Source of the DNA: Mycoplasmataceae bacterium
GTDB lineage: Bacteria; Bacillota_I; Bacilli_A; Mycoplasmatales; Mycoplasmoidaceae
Length of the DNA: 42,751 bases
Direction of reading: 5' to 3'
Assembly: GCA_031281575.1 (NCBI GenBank)
Contig: JAITFD010000008.1
Span: 1 to 42,751, forward strand
A model generated the notes under the pieces. It did not search any database, had not been told where the DNA came from, and saw only the letters and a list, made by a program, of their open reading frames with translations. Of the stretch, positions 4,072-20,451 are shown piece after piece. A program made the position numbers and the translations under genes. Numbering within the stretch: position 1 is the first letter of the stretch; each line of letters starts with the position of its first letter.

Positions 4072-6027
4072 ATGTATATAACCGAGCAAATTAATCGAGC
4101 TGAATGTGGAATATGTGTGTTAAATACATTATTTTATCATTATTATGGTCGTAACATCAAACAAGAACTATTAAAGTTGGCACCAATCAGTGAACAAGGA
4201 ATTAACATCTTTGATCTTGAAAATTTAGCAATCAAGCACGGAATATTGCTCGAAAGCTATCATGCAAGCATTACCGAACTAATGACAATTAAAAATAATG
4301 GGTTATTAATTACATTAGTAAAAGAAAAAGATGGTTTGCATTACACTTTAATCAAAATTCACAAAAAATATATTGAAATATTCGATTCAATAAAAGGGCA
4401 TTATCAAATAAATTTGGACAATTTTAATCAAATCTATACCGGGACCATCATTATTCCACACAAACACAAAATACAATTTGACGAAAATAATAAATTTAAT
4501 TTTCATCCGTTTTTTAAATTTCGATATGTCCTAACTAATTTATTTTTACAGCTCGCGGTGATTATTAGTTCAATTGTTGGCGCAAATTATTTTAGAATGA
4601 TCATGATTCATGGCACTAGTCAAAAATCAATTAAAAATTTAATTCTTGTGTCTTTTGTGTTTTTATTATTTTTTGTAATTAATGAACTGGCAGTTTTTGT
4701 TCAACGTTTATTAATTCGCAAAACAGTCCATATTAACTGCATGTTACTGACAAAGCAATTTATTGATTCATTAACAAAAAAGAATAATCAATTTCATCTA
4801 AAAAATGATATTACAAAATTAAATCGAGTTGAAGAAGCAATTATGTATATTTGTAATTTCCACGGATGAGTAATAATTAATTTCATCAGCGGAATTATTA
4901 CGTGTATCTTAATAATGAGCATTCTTACTTTCATTAATCATTGATATATGATTGCGTGTTTATCATATATCCTAATTAGCGGTTCCATTGGATTAATTGT
5001 ATATCAACAACAAAAAAAGATCATACAAAAAAATATTAATTACAACACCGCCAATGAAAACGCAACAATTAACACAATTAACTATTTCAAAAATCAGCAA
5101 AATAAAATTTTAATGAATAAAAATATTGATGACTTAAAAATTAATTCACATGAAATTAATAAAAGCAATTATCAAAGCGAAATTCATCATGGCTGAAGAA
5201 ATTTTATCAACGCATTATGTGGTCGGTTAATTTTAATTGCGATAATTATGATTGGTAGCATATCGATCATCGATGCACAACTTTCACTCGGAATGTTAAT
5301 TTTAACAATTAATTTATTAAGTCTATTTACTATTAATTTTAATCACGTGATCAATTTTAAATATGCGGATGCGTGTTACCGACAGATGCAAGAAATATAT
5401 GATAATTTTACAATGATCGGAAATATTGAAAATGGATCGATAACATTACCATTAAAAATTAAAACTGTAGCATATACCGTTGATGATTCGGAAATTTCAA
5501 TCAAAAACGGACAAACAATTTTTAACAATCAAACGAAATTTAATTATGCGATTACATGTCAAGAAAATAATAAACATTTTAAAGTAAAAATTAATAACAT
5601 TAAAGTTGATGAATTTAAAATTGAAGATATTTATGACCGTGTTATTATTTTTAATTATGATACTAAATTGCAGATTGATGATAGTTATCTTAATCAATTA
5701 ATTACATACAACTGTGTGATCGACTTTATTAAATTATTTCATTTTAACATTAAACGACCAGAGAAAATTTTACCGATTTCGTATTATCAAATTATTAATT
5801 TCTTAATTTCTTTAACGTGTCGTAACCATATAATTATTTTTGATAATTCGTGGCAATACATTAATAAACAAATGTGAGCACACATCAAAAAATATATTAT
5901 TCCGCAAATTAAAAAATTCAATTTTGTTATCTTCGAAAATAACGAAATTCACAATCAAAAAAAATCAACAAATAAATTAGCTTTCTATGCCAATAAAAAA
6001 GATCCAGTCCAAATTAAATCAATCTAA
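4072..6027 (+). CDS. C39 peptidase/ABC-exporter-like protein with degenerate NBD
   Basis: A 651-residue protein with the plan of peptidase-containing ABC exporters, which trim double-glycine leaders and export peptides. Residues 1-120 form a C39 domain: Gln6, catalytic Cys12 in AECGICVLN, His90 in GLHYTLI and Asp105 in EIFDS. Several membrane segments follow between about 150 and 430. The C-terminal 200 residues look like a nucleotide-binding domain in outline (KVKINNIKVDEFKIEDIYD resembles the strand after the P-loop; HIIIFDNS resembles Walker B). However, no Walker A GxxGxGKS/T and no LSGGQ signature exist. The P-loop position is filled by NYAITCQENNKHF. It may be an inactive or repurposed exporter, or need an ATPase in trans. 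GAGGGG lies 5 nt before the ATG. No substrate peptide gene is evident nearby. Confidence 0.8.
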
Positions 6028-11024: not shown

Positions 11025-11429
11025 ATGATCTTGAATCTAGATAAAATGTGAACATATATCAAAACTCGACCAGTTTTTTGTGCGTTTTTATGAACATTTA
11101 TTGTGACGATGGCGACAATTGTTCCGGCATCATTTGCTTTATACAACCACAATCGCATTTATGTTGTTGGCCCGAATAAGCTCTACGGCCTAGATGGTTC
11201 AGCTACTTATACAATATCTGGTGATAAATTCATTTATGGCAGCGAGAATTTAATTAAATGGGTTGTTTTAGATCGACCAAAAGAGTTTATCATTACCATT
11301 TATCAAAATGTTTTAACTTGATCGTATACTGGTATTGATGTTGAACAACCAGAGTATTACTTTCAACTTCGGGCTGAATATGAAAAATTAAATAGCGATA
11401 ATTTTCCGATTACCATTATTAACGACTAA
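11025..11429 (+). CDS. Single-pass membrane protein of unknown function
   Basis: A 134-residue protein with a short cytoplasmic N-terminus (about 22 residues, several basic). One membrane segment follows (FCAFLWTFIVTMATIVPASFALY), then an approximately 90-residue polar domain probably outside the cell. The start at 11025 depends on reading TGA as Trp at three or more positions. An in-frame ATG further on would remove the membrane anchor. No family is recognised. Its TAA overlaps the next ATG by one base, so the two genes are translationally coupled. The pair converges on the giant surface protein gene. Confidence 0.75.
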
Positions 11430-11986
11430 TGAAAAAAAAACAGAAAAAAATAATTGAAGATAAATCATTGCGATATTTTCGGATCATGCTTTTTTGATAT
11501 TTGACAATTACATGCGCAATTACTTTGCTTGCATTCATATGTACAATTTGTTTATTTTTCAAAATTGATTTAACTGGGGTTTATTACATTATGCCAAATA
11601 CTCGCGGTGACAACACCCAAGTAATTACGCCATATGGGATAATTATTTTAATTATTACATTTGTAGCGACTTGCGCGAATACATTATTAATTTTTAAATC
11701 AAAACATAAAATTAATTTATTTTATTTTGGCATCTTGGAAATTCTTTTCTTTATTTTATTTATTACAACAACGATTGGGATTTATAGTAATCCGCGTTTA
11801 TTTCTTCCTAGTTATGCAGAGTATATTTATGAAGGTCCAAATGAATGAATTCGAATTTATCATATTAATGACTATATTTATTTTCATTTAAGTATTTTAT
11901 TTTTAATTTTAACCGCCGTGATTGTGATGTTAATTAATTGATATCACAACCGCACAACTCGCCATATAAAAAAGCATCACTTTTAA
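11429..11986 (+). CDS. Four-pass membrane protein of unknown function
   Basis: A 185-residue protein with a basic N-terminus (MKKKQKK). Membrane segments fall at about 24-48 (LTITCAITLLAFICTICLFF), 70-88 (GIIILIITFVATCANTLL), 97-115 (FYFGILEILFFILFITTT) and 152-172 (HLSILFLILTAVIVMLI), with a basic His-rich C-terminus. An extracellular or periplasm-like loop lies between segments 3 and 4. Start and preceding stop overlap (TAATG). No family recognised. The shared promoter and coupling with 11025 suggest that the two products act together. Confidence 0.75.
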
Positions 11987-11988
11987 AT

Positions 11989-14900
11989 TTATTCGCGTTT
12001 ATGCATTTTACGTTTATGCGATGCCTCACTAATTTTGTGAATTTTTTCAATTACTTTTTTTCGGTTAATTGCATGATAACGATATTGACTCTTTGCTTGT
12101 TGTTTTAGTTTTTCTTTATTTTTCTTATGATGAAAGATTTTAAAAGTAAATAATACCCCATAAAATAAAATGATGCCTAAACCAGGAATAATACTAATAA
12201 AGAAAAGCGATCCATTAAGTGTTGTCCGTTCGGGAAAATAAATTTCCAAATTTTCAATCGCGATCACTTCGCCATCGGCTGTTGAAGCAACTAAAGGAAT
12301 AATAATTTTATCATTAATTCCAAATTTACTGATGATGATTCCTAATGACCCGTCGGGATAGAAAACAATTAAATCGGTTAATTCAGCCGGAAGTGATCAA
12401 GTAATTTCACCGTAATAGTCATAGTTTGTTCGTGGTAAATTTTTAAATTCTTCATACATATCGTTATGATCGATTTCAATTTTACGAATACCACGAATTT
12501 CAAGAAAAGGTAGGGTAATATTAAAATGGACGGGAAAAGCCTTAATCACGTGATCGTCATCGACCATGATGGCTTTAATGTTTAATGTATGATTACCAAG
12601 CGGAATGCCTTTATAAATACTTAAATAGCCCGTTGTTGCATTAATGTATACTTGATTATTTAATAAATCATAGTCCGGTGATAAAGGGTCAATTTCCCAA
12701 CGAATTGTCTGTGATAATTCGCTTGGTGAAATCATCGCTGTGAAACGAAATGCATATCCGGTCATTCCACGATACCAGTTAATTGTGTCGTTTTCTGGCA
12801 TATAGACCGTAATAATTGGATCGTTAATATAAACAATTAGTGAATAACTAGCAATTAACGGAACTCCCGCGGTAATTGATGGGTCATTGGCTTTAACATT
12901 AATCGTAATTGCTAATTCTTGGTACGAGTGAATGGTTTTAGGAACGGTTAATAATCCGTTGTTATCTAATTGTAATTGACTAGCCCCAGAACCAGTTAAT
13001 GATCATGTAACTGATTGCGATAATCCATACGGTGTATTAGTTGCGTTAAAAATTGGTTGAACAACGGCATTAAATTGCATTGTTCCACCAACCCCGTCCG
13101 TAAAACTATTCGTATCATTAGTTGTAATATCAATCATACTAGCATGTTGATTAATATTAAATGACGAAGATGTAACATGGGACGGCTGAGTAACACCAGT
13201 GGCAGTTACCTCGATATAATATTGACCAACCGCCAAATTTGGGTTAATGCGGATTTCTCCCATTGGCCCGGTAAATAAGTCCGCACTATCATAAGAAACC
13301 GATGCTGCAACTGTATATGTATAAACATACGTGTCAGTTGGTGATGCATTACAACTGGTTGCAATGGCAATTGTTTTGGGTACTTTTTGGACACCATCTA
13401 AATAATAGCCATTTAGTCCAGTCGCCGTAGTAGTATATTCCATGCTATATGAAATCTCGGAGATTCTTACATCGATCGGTAAGGTGTTAGTTAGTTTCGT
13501 TCCATTCGGTAATGCAAGCGCATTCGCGGCAACCGTAATTACTAAATTAAAATGCGCCCCATCATCCAATGCTAAATTTGTTAATGTTAAAATTCCTTGT
13601 GTATTATCGTTTGGATTTGGCGATAAGGCAAAATTACTTGCGCCGTCACCGCTTAATGTTCACGTCTTTGAATGATCCGACAATACGGTATTATTCGGCA
13701 TGGATATAACCGATGTAAAATTCGCAACTTGTCCGGCGGTGTTTTCAAAAAAACTGACATTTAATGGACCGGTTAAACTGATGGTTGGATTATTTACATG
13801 AATCGTTACTATAAAATCATTTAGACTTTCATAATCGCCATATCCAGCATGGATATTAAGCGGATACGTTCCAACTAGTAAATCCGCCGGAACAACAATT
13901 GATCCGTCACTACCAATATTAAATTGTGTTGAATTCGTAATTGTTCATGTCGGTATAACAACATGACCGTTCAATGTTGCGACAAGCGGTAGTGTTGATC
14001 CACCTTGGTAATAACTAAATCATGCATCATGGTCGCCATTAATAACGATATCATTTGCCAAAATCGCAATCCGAACATCAACCGTTTTTTTAATTGTTAG
14101 ATATGAAGCATCAAAGGCCGTTAATTGAATGTTATAGTTGCCATATTCAAGGCCGTCGGTATTAATAATAATGTCACAGTTATTATTTCGCACACCGGAT
14201 TTAATAATTTGAACATGATTAGTAAATACTTGGTTCGATGTAACAAACGATCAATCAATATAATCATTGGCATAAATTGCGTCCGGTCCAATAATTTCCG
14301 CCTGATATCCCGATAAAGTAATCGTACCAGAGTTTTGATATGATTCATGATAAGTAATCGGAGCATATAAATCGATGCTAGGTCCTTCGACAACCACTAC
14401 TACATCAATTGATGTTTGATAAACTTCAGCGTGTTCATCATCATAACCGGTCGCTTCAATCGATAATGTATATTCAGCCGGTTCACATCCTGGCTCAACA
14501 TATAATGTTACACCGAATACATCGTCCGGATTTGGTAATACATGAATTTTATCGGTTGTTGGGGAGCCATCGGCAAAAACTAATGCTCATTCCACATCTT
14601 CGATTGATGGATCGTTAGTATTAACATAGTACGTAGTACTTCCACCACCAAATACATCTGTATCAAGTGACAAGCTACCAGATAAATAATAATATGATTC
14701 ATCAGCTGATCCTTCCACAACGATCTGCAAATCATGGGTGTCGGTGATCACTGAATTATATGCAACTTGTGCTGATAAAACAACATTGTAAGTTCCGGGA
14801 GCGGTTGTGGTCGGAACAGTAATTAATCCCGAATATTGATTAATTTCAAATAACGGCGAATCAATTGATCATAAATAATTCCGCGGGATCGTTGTTGTAT

Positions 14901-16251
14901 CAGGTGTTGCATCAATTGATCAATTATTCATTTGTTGTCCTGGATAAGCACTAACTGAATCAGGACCTTTAATTTGAATTTGTGTAATTTCATTATCAAC
15001 AACAATTTGATCTTCAGATTGTAATCCAAATACACCGTCGGTATCACCTAATTTTAAATCACCGTGATGCGAACGATATGTTGCTAATTGTGCCTCTGTC
15101 GCACCGGGCATCATGTGAATAATTGTTTTTGCATTTAGCACATCAGGTCGGCTGACAATTGTTGGATCATAGTTTGCAAATTGAGCTCGCTGGTAGCCAA
15201 ACTCACCACTACTAGTTTGATAGACCTCTCAATACATTCCCGTACCGTCCCGAGTTGTTGAATAATCGTTGTCATATAAATATACATTGCGGATGTTTAG
15301 TGCATAAAAAAAACAACGATTAAGGACATTTTTAACATTTCGCAAATCAACTTCCGTAATTGAAAATGCTGAATCAAAACAACTAACGGGTAAAGTAATT
15401 AAGGTGTTTTCATCAAACAATTCCGTAATATTAATTGCTCCGGACGCTAATGAATTACCATAAACATGTTTGCTACCATTTTGATTAACAATAACTGCCG
15501 ATCCGTTAATTCCATTCACCATTGAATATGCAACTTTCATATTAGGATTGTTTGGATCGACAGTAATTTGATCCCATTTTAAATTTGGCGCACACCCAAA
15601 ACGTAATGTTTGTACAGTTGACGTAGTCAGTTTATCGGTAATTGAACGACCTAAATGAACAGAACGCAGATTTGTACAATTATAAAATGTTCGATATGGC
15701 AATTCAGTCATAAAATTATTTGAACTAAAACCATAAATTTCTTTACAAGAAATTTCTGGGGCGGATAGGTCGTTATATGAGAATGTACCAACAGTTGACA
15801 TCCCGCTTGTTCCGTCAAAAGGCGCACCAGCTAGTCCAGTAACCTTGAACGTTGTGCTAGTTGCGGTTTTAGTAACATAATCTTGGACTTTCAAGTAAAT
15901 TACAGAATTGACGTTGAAACGATACCCAGTTAATATTACTTCGTCGCTTGCTGAATTATAGCTTGTGCCCTGTCTTTGACCAAAATATAATTCATCGCCA
16001 CTACCAATACTTAATCCTCACTTTTCGTAATCGGCGTTTGTCTCAGTTAACGAAAAAACATTTTTATATTGTGTGTTGTTTGCACGAACTCCACCAGTTT
16101 GATAACTATCAGCAGCTTGAATTGATGCGAATTCTGCATCAATTTTCCGTCGATCATTTTCAACAAATTGCACAATTATAATCACAATTGTACTTAATGC
16201 AATTAAAATACTTAATGTTTTGATAATGAGGATTTGGATTTTTTTTGACAT
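11989..16251 (-). CDS. Giant surface protein with BspA-like LRR and Ig-like domains
   Basis: A continuous 1,420-codon frame with several TGA-Trp codons and no TAA/TAG. The N-terminal MSKKIQILIIKTLSILIALS and following residues form an uncleaved or signal-type membrane segment. Residues about 165-335 resemble BspA-type leucine-rich repeats (LPYRTFYNCTNLRSVHLG; LPVSCFDSAFSITEVDL). Residues about 400-1340 are beta-rich, Thr/Asn/Ser-rich, with repeated 'Y.L.G...I..A' strands and W-containing segments (WTITNSTQFNIGSDG; WSLTGSGASQLQLDNNG; WTLSGDGASNFALS) typical of tandem bacterial Ig-like domains. A second membrane segment (SLFFISIIPGLGIILFYGVLF) and a basic tail of about 45 residues end the protein, so most of it should be outside. 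ATG at 16249-16251 starts one base after the lipoprotein stop. It is probably an adhesin, but the target is unknown. Confidence 0.85.
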
Positions 16252-16252
16252 A

Positions 16253-16858
16253 TTAATATGGATAGATTTCATATTGAATTTGTAAATTAATTCCAAAGGT
16301 AGTTGTTGTATTTTGACATCATCAATAATAATTAACTTTAATGTTGTCGTAAATTACTCAAAATTGCATATTAGCGATATAATATCAATTTAATGATAAA
16401 ATTAAATCATCAGATTCAGAATCAAAATTAAGTTCGCATACATATTCATTAGATGTAAAAGTTAATTGATCAGTCACACTACTTTCCTTTGAAAATGCAG
16501 CAATTAATAATATATTATTAATTTGATTATTCTTATCAGCAGTAATAACATAATCAGTTTTATTAATTTCGTGATTGGTGATGCGATTTTGTAAAACTCC
16601 ACGAACGACAAAATCTTTTTGCGTTGCATCTGGTTTACGGGCTTGATAATGTTGTCCTTCATTGTAATAAAATGTATAATCAAAAGAAATTTCATTATAA
16701 TTTGAATTGTTTCGGAACATTGATAATGGGTTTTCGCCATATAATACATCATCATTAAATTTTTCGTATCGTCAATTATTTAATGGTTGTGAACATGAAA
16801 CAACTGTTAAAATGATAAAAAAAAATAAAAAAACGATCGACAGCAATTTGATCCTCAT
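16253..16858 (-). CDS. Putative lipoprotein upstream of the giant surface protein
   Basis: A 201-residue protein with a signal peptide and lipobox: a basic MRIK, a Phe/Leu/Ile core, then TVVSC with Cys at about residue 22. It should be acylated and exposed on the cell surface. TGA at the apparent end near 16382 is Trp, so the real stop is TAA at 16253-16255 and the C-terminus is about 43 residues longer than under the standard code. The next gene starts one base later, implying translational coupling with the giant surface protein. It has its own -10 box (16869-16874). No family is recognised. Confidence 0.8.
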
Positions 16859-16876: not shown

Positions 16877-18670
16877 TTAATTTGCCTCCGAGTCATTGAA
16901 TTGGCTTAAATATAATTTATAGTATTTTTGTTTATTTTTTAATAATTCATCATGTGTTCCAGATTCAACAAGTTGTCCGTGATCGATTACCAAAATTAAA
17001 TCAGCGTTTTTAATTGTTGATAAACGATGCGCAATTACAAATGTCGTTTTTCCTTTAATTAATTTACTAAATGCTTTCTCAACTTGAAGTTCTGTGATCG
17101 TATCAATATTGCTTGTTGCTTCATCTAGAATTACCATATGCGGATTAATTAGCATAATTCGGGCAATGCAAATTAATTGCTTTTGCCCTTCCGAGATTGA
17201 TGCATAATCATTAATTATTGTATCATAACCTTTCGGTAAAGAAGCAATAAAATTATGTAAATTAATTGCTCGACAGATATTTTCTAAGTGTTTTTGTGTG
17301 ATTTTCTTTTGCTGATAAACAATATTTTGGCGAATGGTTCCATTAAATATTCATGCTTCTTGTGAAACAACTGCATACAATGAACGCAAATAGTTAACAT
17401 TTAAATCAGATATGTTATATCCGTCGATTTTAATAACACCGCTATTTGGATCATAAAAGCGCATCAATAATTTTGTAATTGTTGTTTTCCCACCACCAGT
17501 GTGACCAACAATTGCAACTTTTTGTCCGCTTTGAATTTTAAAACTCAAATTATTAATTACGTTTTTTTTACCATAGGCAAATGTAACATTGTTAAATTCC
17601 ACATTGCCTTTAAATTGCTGACGGGGGATGACCAGATTTTTTGATTTAAATTTTTCATTTGGAATTGCTAAAATTGTTTCAATATGATTAAAATAACTTG
17701 CTCCTAATTGAATTGCTTCAAATTGAGTACTTAAATTAGCTAATGATAAATTGATTAATCCGACATAAACTAAAAAAGACGGAATTACTGTTATAAATTG
17801 CATGTTATGATCGCGAATTGCTCATACCGTTCCAAGCACGCACAAGGTAATTTCGCCAATATAAACGGCAGATAATAAAATCGGAGAAATTATTGATGAA
17901 TATAATTTCGCTTTTTTACTACTTTTATATAGTGCTTTATTTGCTAAATTAAATTTTTTTTGAAATATTTGATTTAAATTAAATGACTTAACTATTGCAT
18001 TACCGGTGTATGTTTCGTTGATTAATGTTGTAAAATTTGCGTTATCTTGTGTTGATTGACGGTAGTAATGATTGGTAAATTTAATAATTATTATTAAAAT
18101 CGAAAATACAATAATAACAATTGTTGACACAATTGAGGCGTAGGTTCATGAAATATAAAACATTCCAGCAATTGTAAATAAAATAAACATCACATTACTA
18201 GCAAATCAAATTGTTTCTGGAACAAAACGATCTTGAATATATGTCGCATCGTTTGCCACAGCAGCAATAATGTTTCCGGTGTCAACTTGATCAAAATATG
18301 ACAACGGTAAATGGTGGGTTTTTCTATTTAACTCGCTCCGTAAAATAAAAGTAATTTTTTTACCTAAAAAATGGATTAAATAATTATTAATCGTATCAAA
18401 TAATCCCGAACCAACAACAAGAACGATAAACAGTATACTATTGAAACAAATTTGATTTCACAAATCATCAAAGTGTCCATATGATGAGCTGTTTTTATCA
18501 AATGCAAGAAAAATATCTGCCGTAATTCTTTCCAAGATAATTGGCGAAACTAGTAATAAAAAATAAGAAAAAAATGAAAATATTAAAATAACAATTAATC
18601 ATCAAATTGCCGGACGATAAGATTTAAAAACACGAAAGATGCTGGGCAATAATTTAATTTTTGTTTTCAT
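16877..18670 (-). CDS. ABC exporter half-transporter, subunit with catalytic Walker B
   Basis: 597 residues: an N-terminal six-helix exporter domain (about 1-330) and a C-terminal ATPase. Walker A is GHTGGGKTT, Walker B MVILDEATSNID has the catalytic Glu, and the H-loop is VIAHRLST. The ABC signature is ISEGQ rather than LSGGQ. It forms an obvious pair with the next subunit upstream; its ATG overlaps that gene's TAA by one base (TAATG). Such heterodimeric exporters (BmrCD, TM287/288 type) move drugs, lipids or peptides outward. The substrate cannot be told from sequence. The lipoprotein and giant surface protein lie directly downstream. Confidence 0.92.
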
Positions 18671-20451
18671 TAAATTAGTAATGCCTCCTGATCCGTAATT
18701 TGACTTTTTACAATTTGCTGATAAGTTTTATTTTTTTGATATAATTCACGATGTGAACCGTGAGCAACAATTTTGCCTTGATCAATTAACAAAATCAAAT
18801 CAGCATTAGCAATATCAGCAACACGATGCGAAGTGATAATTTTTGTCGTATTTTTATATTTAATTAAAATCTTTTTTAAAACAGATTTGCTTGTACGATA
18901 ATCTAATGCTGAAAATGAATTATCGAAAATTAAAAATTCTGGATTTTTTGCTAATGCACGGGCAATTGAAACGCGTTGCTTTTGTCCACCAGATAAATTG
19001 ACACCGTTCTCACTTATTTGTGCATCATATTGATGCGGTAATGTAGTAATAAAATCATTTAAATGCGAAACATCGGCAATATCTTTCATTAACGTTTCAT
19101 TAATTTTAGTTTCCTTAAAATAAATATTATTTTTTAATGTATTACGAAATAGAAAAACTTTTTGTGATACGTAACCGATCTTATTTCTTAATATTTTTAA
19201 TGGGATTTGTCGTACATCAATACCATCAATTGCAATTGATCCTTTTGTGCAATCATAGAATCGTTGCATTAATTCGATAATTGTCGATTTTCCAGCACCA
19301 TTTGCACCAATAATACCTAATGTTTGACCTTTAGAAACATTAAAAGAAATACCTTTTAATGTCGGTATTGCTGAATTAGGATAAGTAAAAGAAACATTTT
19401 TGAAAGTAATTTCACCGGTGGTTGTGAATGGTTTACTAAGCTGTTTAACATCTTGAATTGGATCAACATAATTTAATACTTCATTAACTCTTCGTGCACT
19501 AACAATCGATTTTGGTAAAGATGCTAATGCTCCTGCGGTTCGCAAAAATGCATTAATTATTAACGTCGCAAATGTTGCAACAACAATAATTTGTGAAGGA
19601 TATAATGTTGCTGAATCGTCAAATACGCCATTAGTTTTTAACACTCATGCTCCTAATCAATAAACGGTGATATTGATTAAGTCAATAAAAGTATAACTAA
19701 GACTATATAGAATACACATCGAGAAATTAATTGAACGCACATTATTTGAAATAGCTTTATTTAAATGCTGAAAATTATTTAGATGAAATCCTTGCGCATT
19801 AAATGATTTAATTATTTTTGCGCCAGTTAATACTGAACTAATTTCATCATTAATTAAATCCAAATTTTTATCAACTTTTTTTGCTTTCTTTTCAACTAGT
19901 AATATAAATGAAACAAAAAAAATAATTAGAAACGTCGTGATTCCAATCACAATTAAAATAATGTTAATACTAAAGTTACTTAATGCTAATTGATTCCCAA
20001 TCATAATTAATGAAAAAATAATTGTAAATGGGCCAATTAAAACAATGCGTAAAAAATCACGGAATTGCGACGCAATTGTATCAATATCAATGGTGTTCCG
20101 TGAAATTAAACTTGCCGTAGTAAAATGATTAACTCCTGCCAACGACATACTATTAACTTTTTTAAATAATTGCAAACGAATTTCATAAGCAAATTTACTT
20201 GCAATAATTGATGAAAAAATTGCATTAATAATTAAAATACCGATTAATATTCCGCAATAAATAATTGTGCTAATAATGATTGTTTTAGATTCATTATTTT
20301 GTGGAAAAATACTATGATCAAATAATGCAACTAAATCACCGATTTTCACTGGAATTTGAATCTCACAATAAACTTGAACACCTAACAATACAAGTAATAT
20401 TGCAATCAATATTCATCTTTGTCAAGAAAAGAACTTTAATAGTTTAAACAT
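18670..20451 (-). CDS. ABC exporter half-transporter, subunit with degenerate Walker B
   Basis: 593 residues with an exporter membrane domain, then an ATPase with Walker A GANGAGKS, signature LSGGQKQR (canonical), Walker B LIFDNSFSALD and H-loop ITSHRVAD. The residue after the Walker B Asp is Asn rather than the catalytic Glu, so this subunit's own ATP site should be impaired. The N-terminus begins MFKLLKFFSWQRW with two TGA-Trp codons, which places the start at 20449-20451. It is the first gene of the pair. No strong -10 box as close as in other genes is evident. Confidence 0.92.

Follow-up and report, generated by a model that had tools for sequence, protein, structure and literature searches.

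A candidate cell-contact cassette built around a large BspA-type LRR and cadherin-like protein in a mollicute of a genus with termite-gut members

Introduction

What might a mollicute do with a protein of 1,420 residues that appears to be tied to its membrane at both ends, and how does this protein relate to the lipoprotein encoded next to it? These questions are raised by a locus in the genome of a Mycoplasmataceae bacterium. BspA genes and proteins are known from Trichomonas-associated mycoplasmas, and two reports describe them in these bacteria (PMC4206474, PMC10557491), with a proposed role in cell-cell recognition in the second of these (PMC10557491). Moreover, Mycoplasmatales are among the lineages named as protist endosymbionts (PMC11257099). 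The window, i.e. the whole stretch of DNA analysed here (42,751 nucleotides), corresponds to an entire contig (C22) from a genome of 776 kb that is 85% complete. Our genus sample comprised 36 species, with one genome each, and our order sample 148 genomes. The accessions of two homolog-bearing MAGs, Mycoplasmataceae bacterium Nm470_bin14 (G028, JAITDP) and Mycoplasmataceae bacterium Zx50_bin17 (G030, JAITWZ), fall inside the range JAIRJQ-JAITXW under which termite gut metagenome MAGs were deposited (PMC11257099), and Nm470 stands for the lower termite Neotermes meruensis (PMC11707648). The members of the genus include termite-gut MAGs.

Results

The large gene and its homologs

The large gene is an open reading frame under code 4, in which 11 TGA codons are read through as W (Table 1). 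One base separates the stop of the lipoprotein gene from the ATG of the large gene, as stated in a first-pass annotation of the locus. The start of the large gene is not certain, as two further in-frame starts are located 7 and 15 codons upstream, which would give proteins of 1,427 and 1,435 aa; either of them would make the large gene overlap the lipoprotein gene. To identify homologs, the large protein of the window was used as a single query against 60 related genomes. Full-length homologs covering residues ~51-1355 were found in G030 (1.1e-112) and G028 (7.3e-91), both 30-32% identical to the window protein over nearly the whole length, and weaker homologs were found in G004, G015, G033 and G018. 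The first-pass annotation had allowed for the possibility that the frame corresponds to several genes in relatives. This is not the case in G030 and G028, where the frames are uninterrupted and encode about 1,403 and 1,446 aa, respectively. Altogether, the family is represented in only 7 of the 36 genus genomes (3 full-length members and 4 more diverged ones), which implies that the lifestyle of these bacteria does not depend on it. In its own genome the large protein is single-copy, and no strong direct repeats at the DNA level that would indicate internal gene duplication were detected in the gene. A recent horizontal gain was also considered and found to be unsupported, the fourfold-site GC of the gene being at the 45th percentile of the ORFs in its own genome.

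Table 1. Features of the locus, with positions in the window.
Feature	Position	Strand	Basis
134-aa protein, one N-terminal TM	11025..11429	plus	overlaps 4-TM gene by one base; position only
Small membrane protein, 185 aa, four TM; proposed third cassette member	11429..11986	plus	convergent with large gene
Large surface protein gene	11989-16251	minus	1,420-aa ORF, code 4, full-length homologs
Basic cytoplasmic tail (predicted)	11992..12150	minus	17 K/R, 4 D/E in last 46 residues
C-terminal transmembrane segment, residues 1349-1367	12151..12207	minus	hydropathy; conserved in relatives
Further beta-sandwich units, residues 768-809, 965-1024, 1067-1130, 1161-1245	12517..13950	minus	internal repeat HMM
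Cadherin-like domain 2, residues 521-623	14383..14691	minus	AF2 pLDDT mostly 70-88, beta sandwich; inside Foldseek-aligned stretch
Cadherin-like domain 1, residues 424-516	14704..14982	minus	profile vs PDB, AF2 pLDDT mostly 70-88, Foldseek
BspA-type LRR region, about residues 165-335	15247..15759	minus	profile vs PDB, Pfam LRR_5 in relatives
N-terminal hydrophobic segment, residues 9-27, probably uncleaved signal anchor	16171..16227	minus	hydropathy
Lipoprotein gene, 201 aa	16253..16858	minus	signal peptide, lipobox VVSC

A BspA-type LRR region

The presence of a BspA-type LRR region was confirmed at the level of the family. The profile of the family has matches in the PDB to BspA-type LRR proteins of solved structure (4fs7, 2.8e-9; 4gt6, 2.4e-7), and 5 of the 7 family members match Pfam LRR_5, the best with 8.2e-12. 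On its own, the window protein scores 20.6 bits against LRR_5 (E 4.4e-4), which is below the cut-off of 27.7 bits; unlike in 4fs7 and 4gt6, its LRR region is short and irregular, and this region was modelled by AF2 with low confidence. Every one of the 36 genomes of the genus contains LRR_5 (65 matches in the own genome), as do 47 of the 148 genomes that were sampled from the order. Judged by these Pfam matches, the BspA expansion is one that runs throughout the genus. When stretches of all contigs of the own genome were searched with one HMM, 25 LRR ORFs were obtained. On another contig (L104, G000:C47, 14241-18739), four genes in tandem encode LRR proteins that have TM segments at both the N- and the C-terminus, and at least two of these proteins terminate in long Lys-rich tails.

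Cadherin-like rather than classical Ig domains

The region following the LRRs had been described as a long series of Ig-like domains. A series of beta sandwiches is indeed present, the first two being supported by model and fold and several more by repeat units, but these are cadherin-like domains without calcium motifs and not classical Ig domains. Sequences of the first repeat unit from five species were combined in a profile, and the best 60 of its 109 PDB matches were all cadherin-family proteins (best 2.8e-11). Likewise, positions 451-554 of the family profile match cadherins. The AF2 model of residues 44-738 was based on an alignment of three sequences and is poor overall (mean pLDDT 52.6), with two beta sandwiches that mostly reach pLDDT 70-88. 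The top Foldseek matches of this model are nearly all cadherins or protocadherins (best 1.6e-10). Whole-model TM-scores are low, as would be expected when a chain is multi-domain and has poorly modelled parts, and the fold assignment therefore rests on the local matches together with the sequence profile. Among the repeat units, Pfam Cadherin was matched with 4.9e-7 at best and He_PIG weakly in 2 of 13 units (best 0.0039), while the classical Ig superfamily gave no better match than cadherin in either the Pfam or the profile-PDB comparison. The last unit (residues 1161-1245) obtained 15.8 bits in the first, non-circular round of the internal repeat HMM, the boundaries of the later domains being approximate. 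Thus, profile and Foldseek identify a cadherin fold in the window protein, and the repeat HMM finds serial units. Within the genus, Pfam Cadherin exceeds its cut-off in one genome only, inside the large gene of G028.

The fold is common to the window domains and animal cadherin repeats (E-cadherin, protocadherins, CELSR1) by profile and model. Unlike these, the window protein is bacterial, and a pattern scan revealed none of the LDRE, DxNDN or DAD/DGD-type calcium motifs. In this respect its units resemble the bacterial putative Ig or dystroglycan-type cadherin-like domains (He_PIG), which are also beta sandwiches without cadherin calcium motifs; however, the He_PIG match falls short of a convincing family assignment, and the units of the window protein are joined to LRRs.

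It had further been proposed that both the size and the domain mix are unusual for a mollicute. This is only half right, since BspA LRRs occur throughout the genus sample, in the order and in other, published mollicutes, and several ORFs of the own genome are larger than 1,420 aa. What stands out is the seemingly unusual combination of LRRs and cadherin-like repeats in one chain. At least eight other ORFs of the own genome have cadherin-like units by HMM, without LRRs. In stretches of all own contigs the HMM search found no other ORF with both, a count that depends on HMM sensitivity because the generic LRR HMM misses the divergent LRRs of the focal protein too. Two very large ORFs were observed on contig G000:C37. 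One encodes 3,337 aa without TM segments (L094, 2330-12343), and the other, which is cut by the stretch end, encodes over 3,000 aa with 7 TM segments (L116, 1-9267); any overlap of the L094 and L116 stretches within the contig would be confined to 18001-20000.

Predicted membrane topology

Hydropathy, by which all TM segments were called, predicts one membrane segment at each end of the large protein. The C-terminal segment is common to the homologs of G028, G030, G004 and G015. Signal peptidase I (PF10502) was found in none of the 36 genus genomes, as compared with 12 of 14 control genomes, which makes canonical cleavage of the N-terminal segment unlikely, even though a divergent signal peptidase could escape a PF10502 search. 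LspA (PF01252) was detected in 34 of the 36 genus genomes, including the own genome (4.1e-12). Anchoring at both ends, as put forward in the first-pass annotation, is consequently plausible. The idea that the C-terminal tail links the protein to the cytoskeleton is unsupported, as neither the length nor the character of the tail is conserved: only about 7-11 residues follow the last TM segment in G028, G030 and G004, and the tail is different again in G033 and G018.

The lipoprotein and 4-TM genes as conserved neighbours

The product of the upstream gene has a signal peptide and a lipobox cysteine (VVSC), and with LspA in the same genome it qualifies as a lipoprotein. Its mature part is mostly beta in a low-confidence model (pLDDT 47). 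Homologous partners are located immediately upstream of the large gene in the own genome, G028 and G030, with leave-one-out E-values of 8.5e-12, 5e-12 and 1e-6, respectively, although the G030 homolog is without the lipobox cysteine. The upstream neighbour in G004 (0.066) is a positional candidate. In all four species examined (own, G028, G030, G004) the partner and large genes abut or overlap, and for G028 and G030 this substantiates the proposed coupling of the two genes.

The large gene is directly followed by a gene for a 4-TM protein, which lies on the same strand in G028 and is convergent in G030 and in the window. The own 4-TM protein matches those of G030 (8.2e-7) and G028 (3.8e-4) in phmmer searches. 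Leave-one-out values are 1.9e-8 for the own protein and 1.1e-8 for G028, and the assignment in G030 rests on the pairwise match to the own protein. The 4-TM neighbours in G004 and G015 failed the leave-one-out analysis and were not counted, as they agree in position and topology only. No further members of the lipoprotein and 4-TM families were found elsewhere in the genus; the underlying profile searches (A3 and A4), which recover their own training sequences by construction, served solely to establish that there are no other matches. The 134-aa protein has no homolog at the other loci, so that its membership is uncertain.

The surroundings of the large gene differ between genomes: a glyS-like gene and ABC transporters in the window, mnmG...cmk in G028, sufB...thyA in G030, an ABC-F gene in G004 and der in G015. 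The finding of the same partners at three otherwise unrelated loci, which are the three firm cases, is evidence for a joint function, and from these sequence comparisons the lipoprotein, large protein and 4-TM protein look like a three-gene cassette. Some other genes nearby should be mentioned. The window also contains a Peptidase C39/ABC exporter gene of the kind exporting bacteriocin-like peptides (4072-6027), and a 6-TM protein of 748 residues that is cut by the contig end and has no Pfam match (1-2246). In G028, helicase-like and BrxP/DndC-like genes adjoin the cassette (L013, 12034-18189), possibly forming a defence island.

Discussion

We consider it about an even bet (probability roughly 0.5) that the cassette serves adhesion or cell contact in a gut-dwelling mollicute. 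Adhesion to a host or partner cell, which had been suggested at the outset, is the most plausible role by analogy with the BspA proteins of Trichomonas-associated mycoplasmas. In such a scheme, the large protein would be inserted in the membrane through two segments, the uncleaved N-terminal one and the C-terminal one, and the intervening part of about 1,310 residues would loop out of the cell, with either end held in the membrane. The BspA-type LRR region on the N-terminal side would be the likely binding part, the cadherin-like beta sandwiches without calcium motifs would serve as a stalk, and the lipoprotein and 4-TM protein would be accessory subunits of the surface complex of the large protein. 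The likely ligand would reside on a partner cell, for example on a flagellate of the gut or on the gut surface of the host. The stricter version, a three-part adhesion machine whose genes stay together while their locus changes, and which binds termite-gut protists with a cadherin fold devoid of calcium ligands, is doubtful at present.

The alternative that survives best, albeit as an improbable one, is that the double-anchored beta-sandwich loops form a structural coat, which would support or protect a cell that has no wall, or would hold sister cells together, without engaging any foreign ligand. Double anchoring would suit a coat, and the cadherin-like ORFs without LRRs in the own genome fit this idea as well. 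However, the patchy occurrence of the family in the genus (7/36) does not, and the columns conserved across all seven homologs lie mostly on the N-terminal LRR side, which points to a specific binding surface. Somewhat less probable still is that only the large protein matters and that its two partners are chance neighbours. While the varying strand of the 4-TM gene and the limitation of firm support for this family to three species would agree with this, members of both families border the large gene at the unrelated loci of three species, and the search of the genus yielded no others.

We regard two further proposals as quite unlikely. In the first, the lipoprotein and the large protein would bind a macromolecule and work with the pair of ABC transporter genes just upstream, which the window genes follow on the same strand at a distance of 18 bases. 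Yet, the cassettes of G028 and G030 have no ABC pair beside them, and the ABC genes are membrane-ATPase fusions with the layout of an exporter, not of a binding-protein-dependent importer. The second, a variable antigen that changes the coat to evade a host or predator with binding not being its main role, would be in line with the low identity of the homologs (30-32%) and with the repeat-length phase variation of Ca. M. girerdii BspA genes (PMC5476646), but there are no long tandem or simple repeats of note in or before the lipoprotein and large gene pair, and the own genome has no near-identical paralog of the large protein.

The closest parallel to the adhesion reading is provided by the BspA-like (TpLRR) proteins of Ca. 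Mycoplasma girerdii, likewise a mollicute with BspA-type LRRs. According to the accessible text of the two reports, this parabasalid-associated mollicute and its relatives have an expanded family of BspA-like proteins of up to 1,481 aa (PMC4206474, PMC10557491), and most Ca. M. girerdii BspA proteins have a C-terminal TM segment (PMC4206474). The same text mentions no cadherin or Ig part in these proteins (PMC4206474, PMC10557491). What sets the window protein apart is its long array of cadherin-like units and the constancy of its partner genes. The large protein and its lipoprotein neighbour are real and conserved, yet they represent a variant of the known BspA LRR surface proteins, and their function is putative.

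Trichomonas already provides examples of BspA-bearing mollicutes living with protists. Here, LRR and cadherin-like modules are joined in a conserved cassette, in a genus with termite-gut MAGs among its members, and this offers a concrete candidate for the means by which symbionts without a cell wall keep hold of a partner cell. If the genus-wide lack of a detectable signal peptidase I is true, double-ended anchoring would be a general and testable surface strategy of these bacteria.
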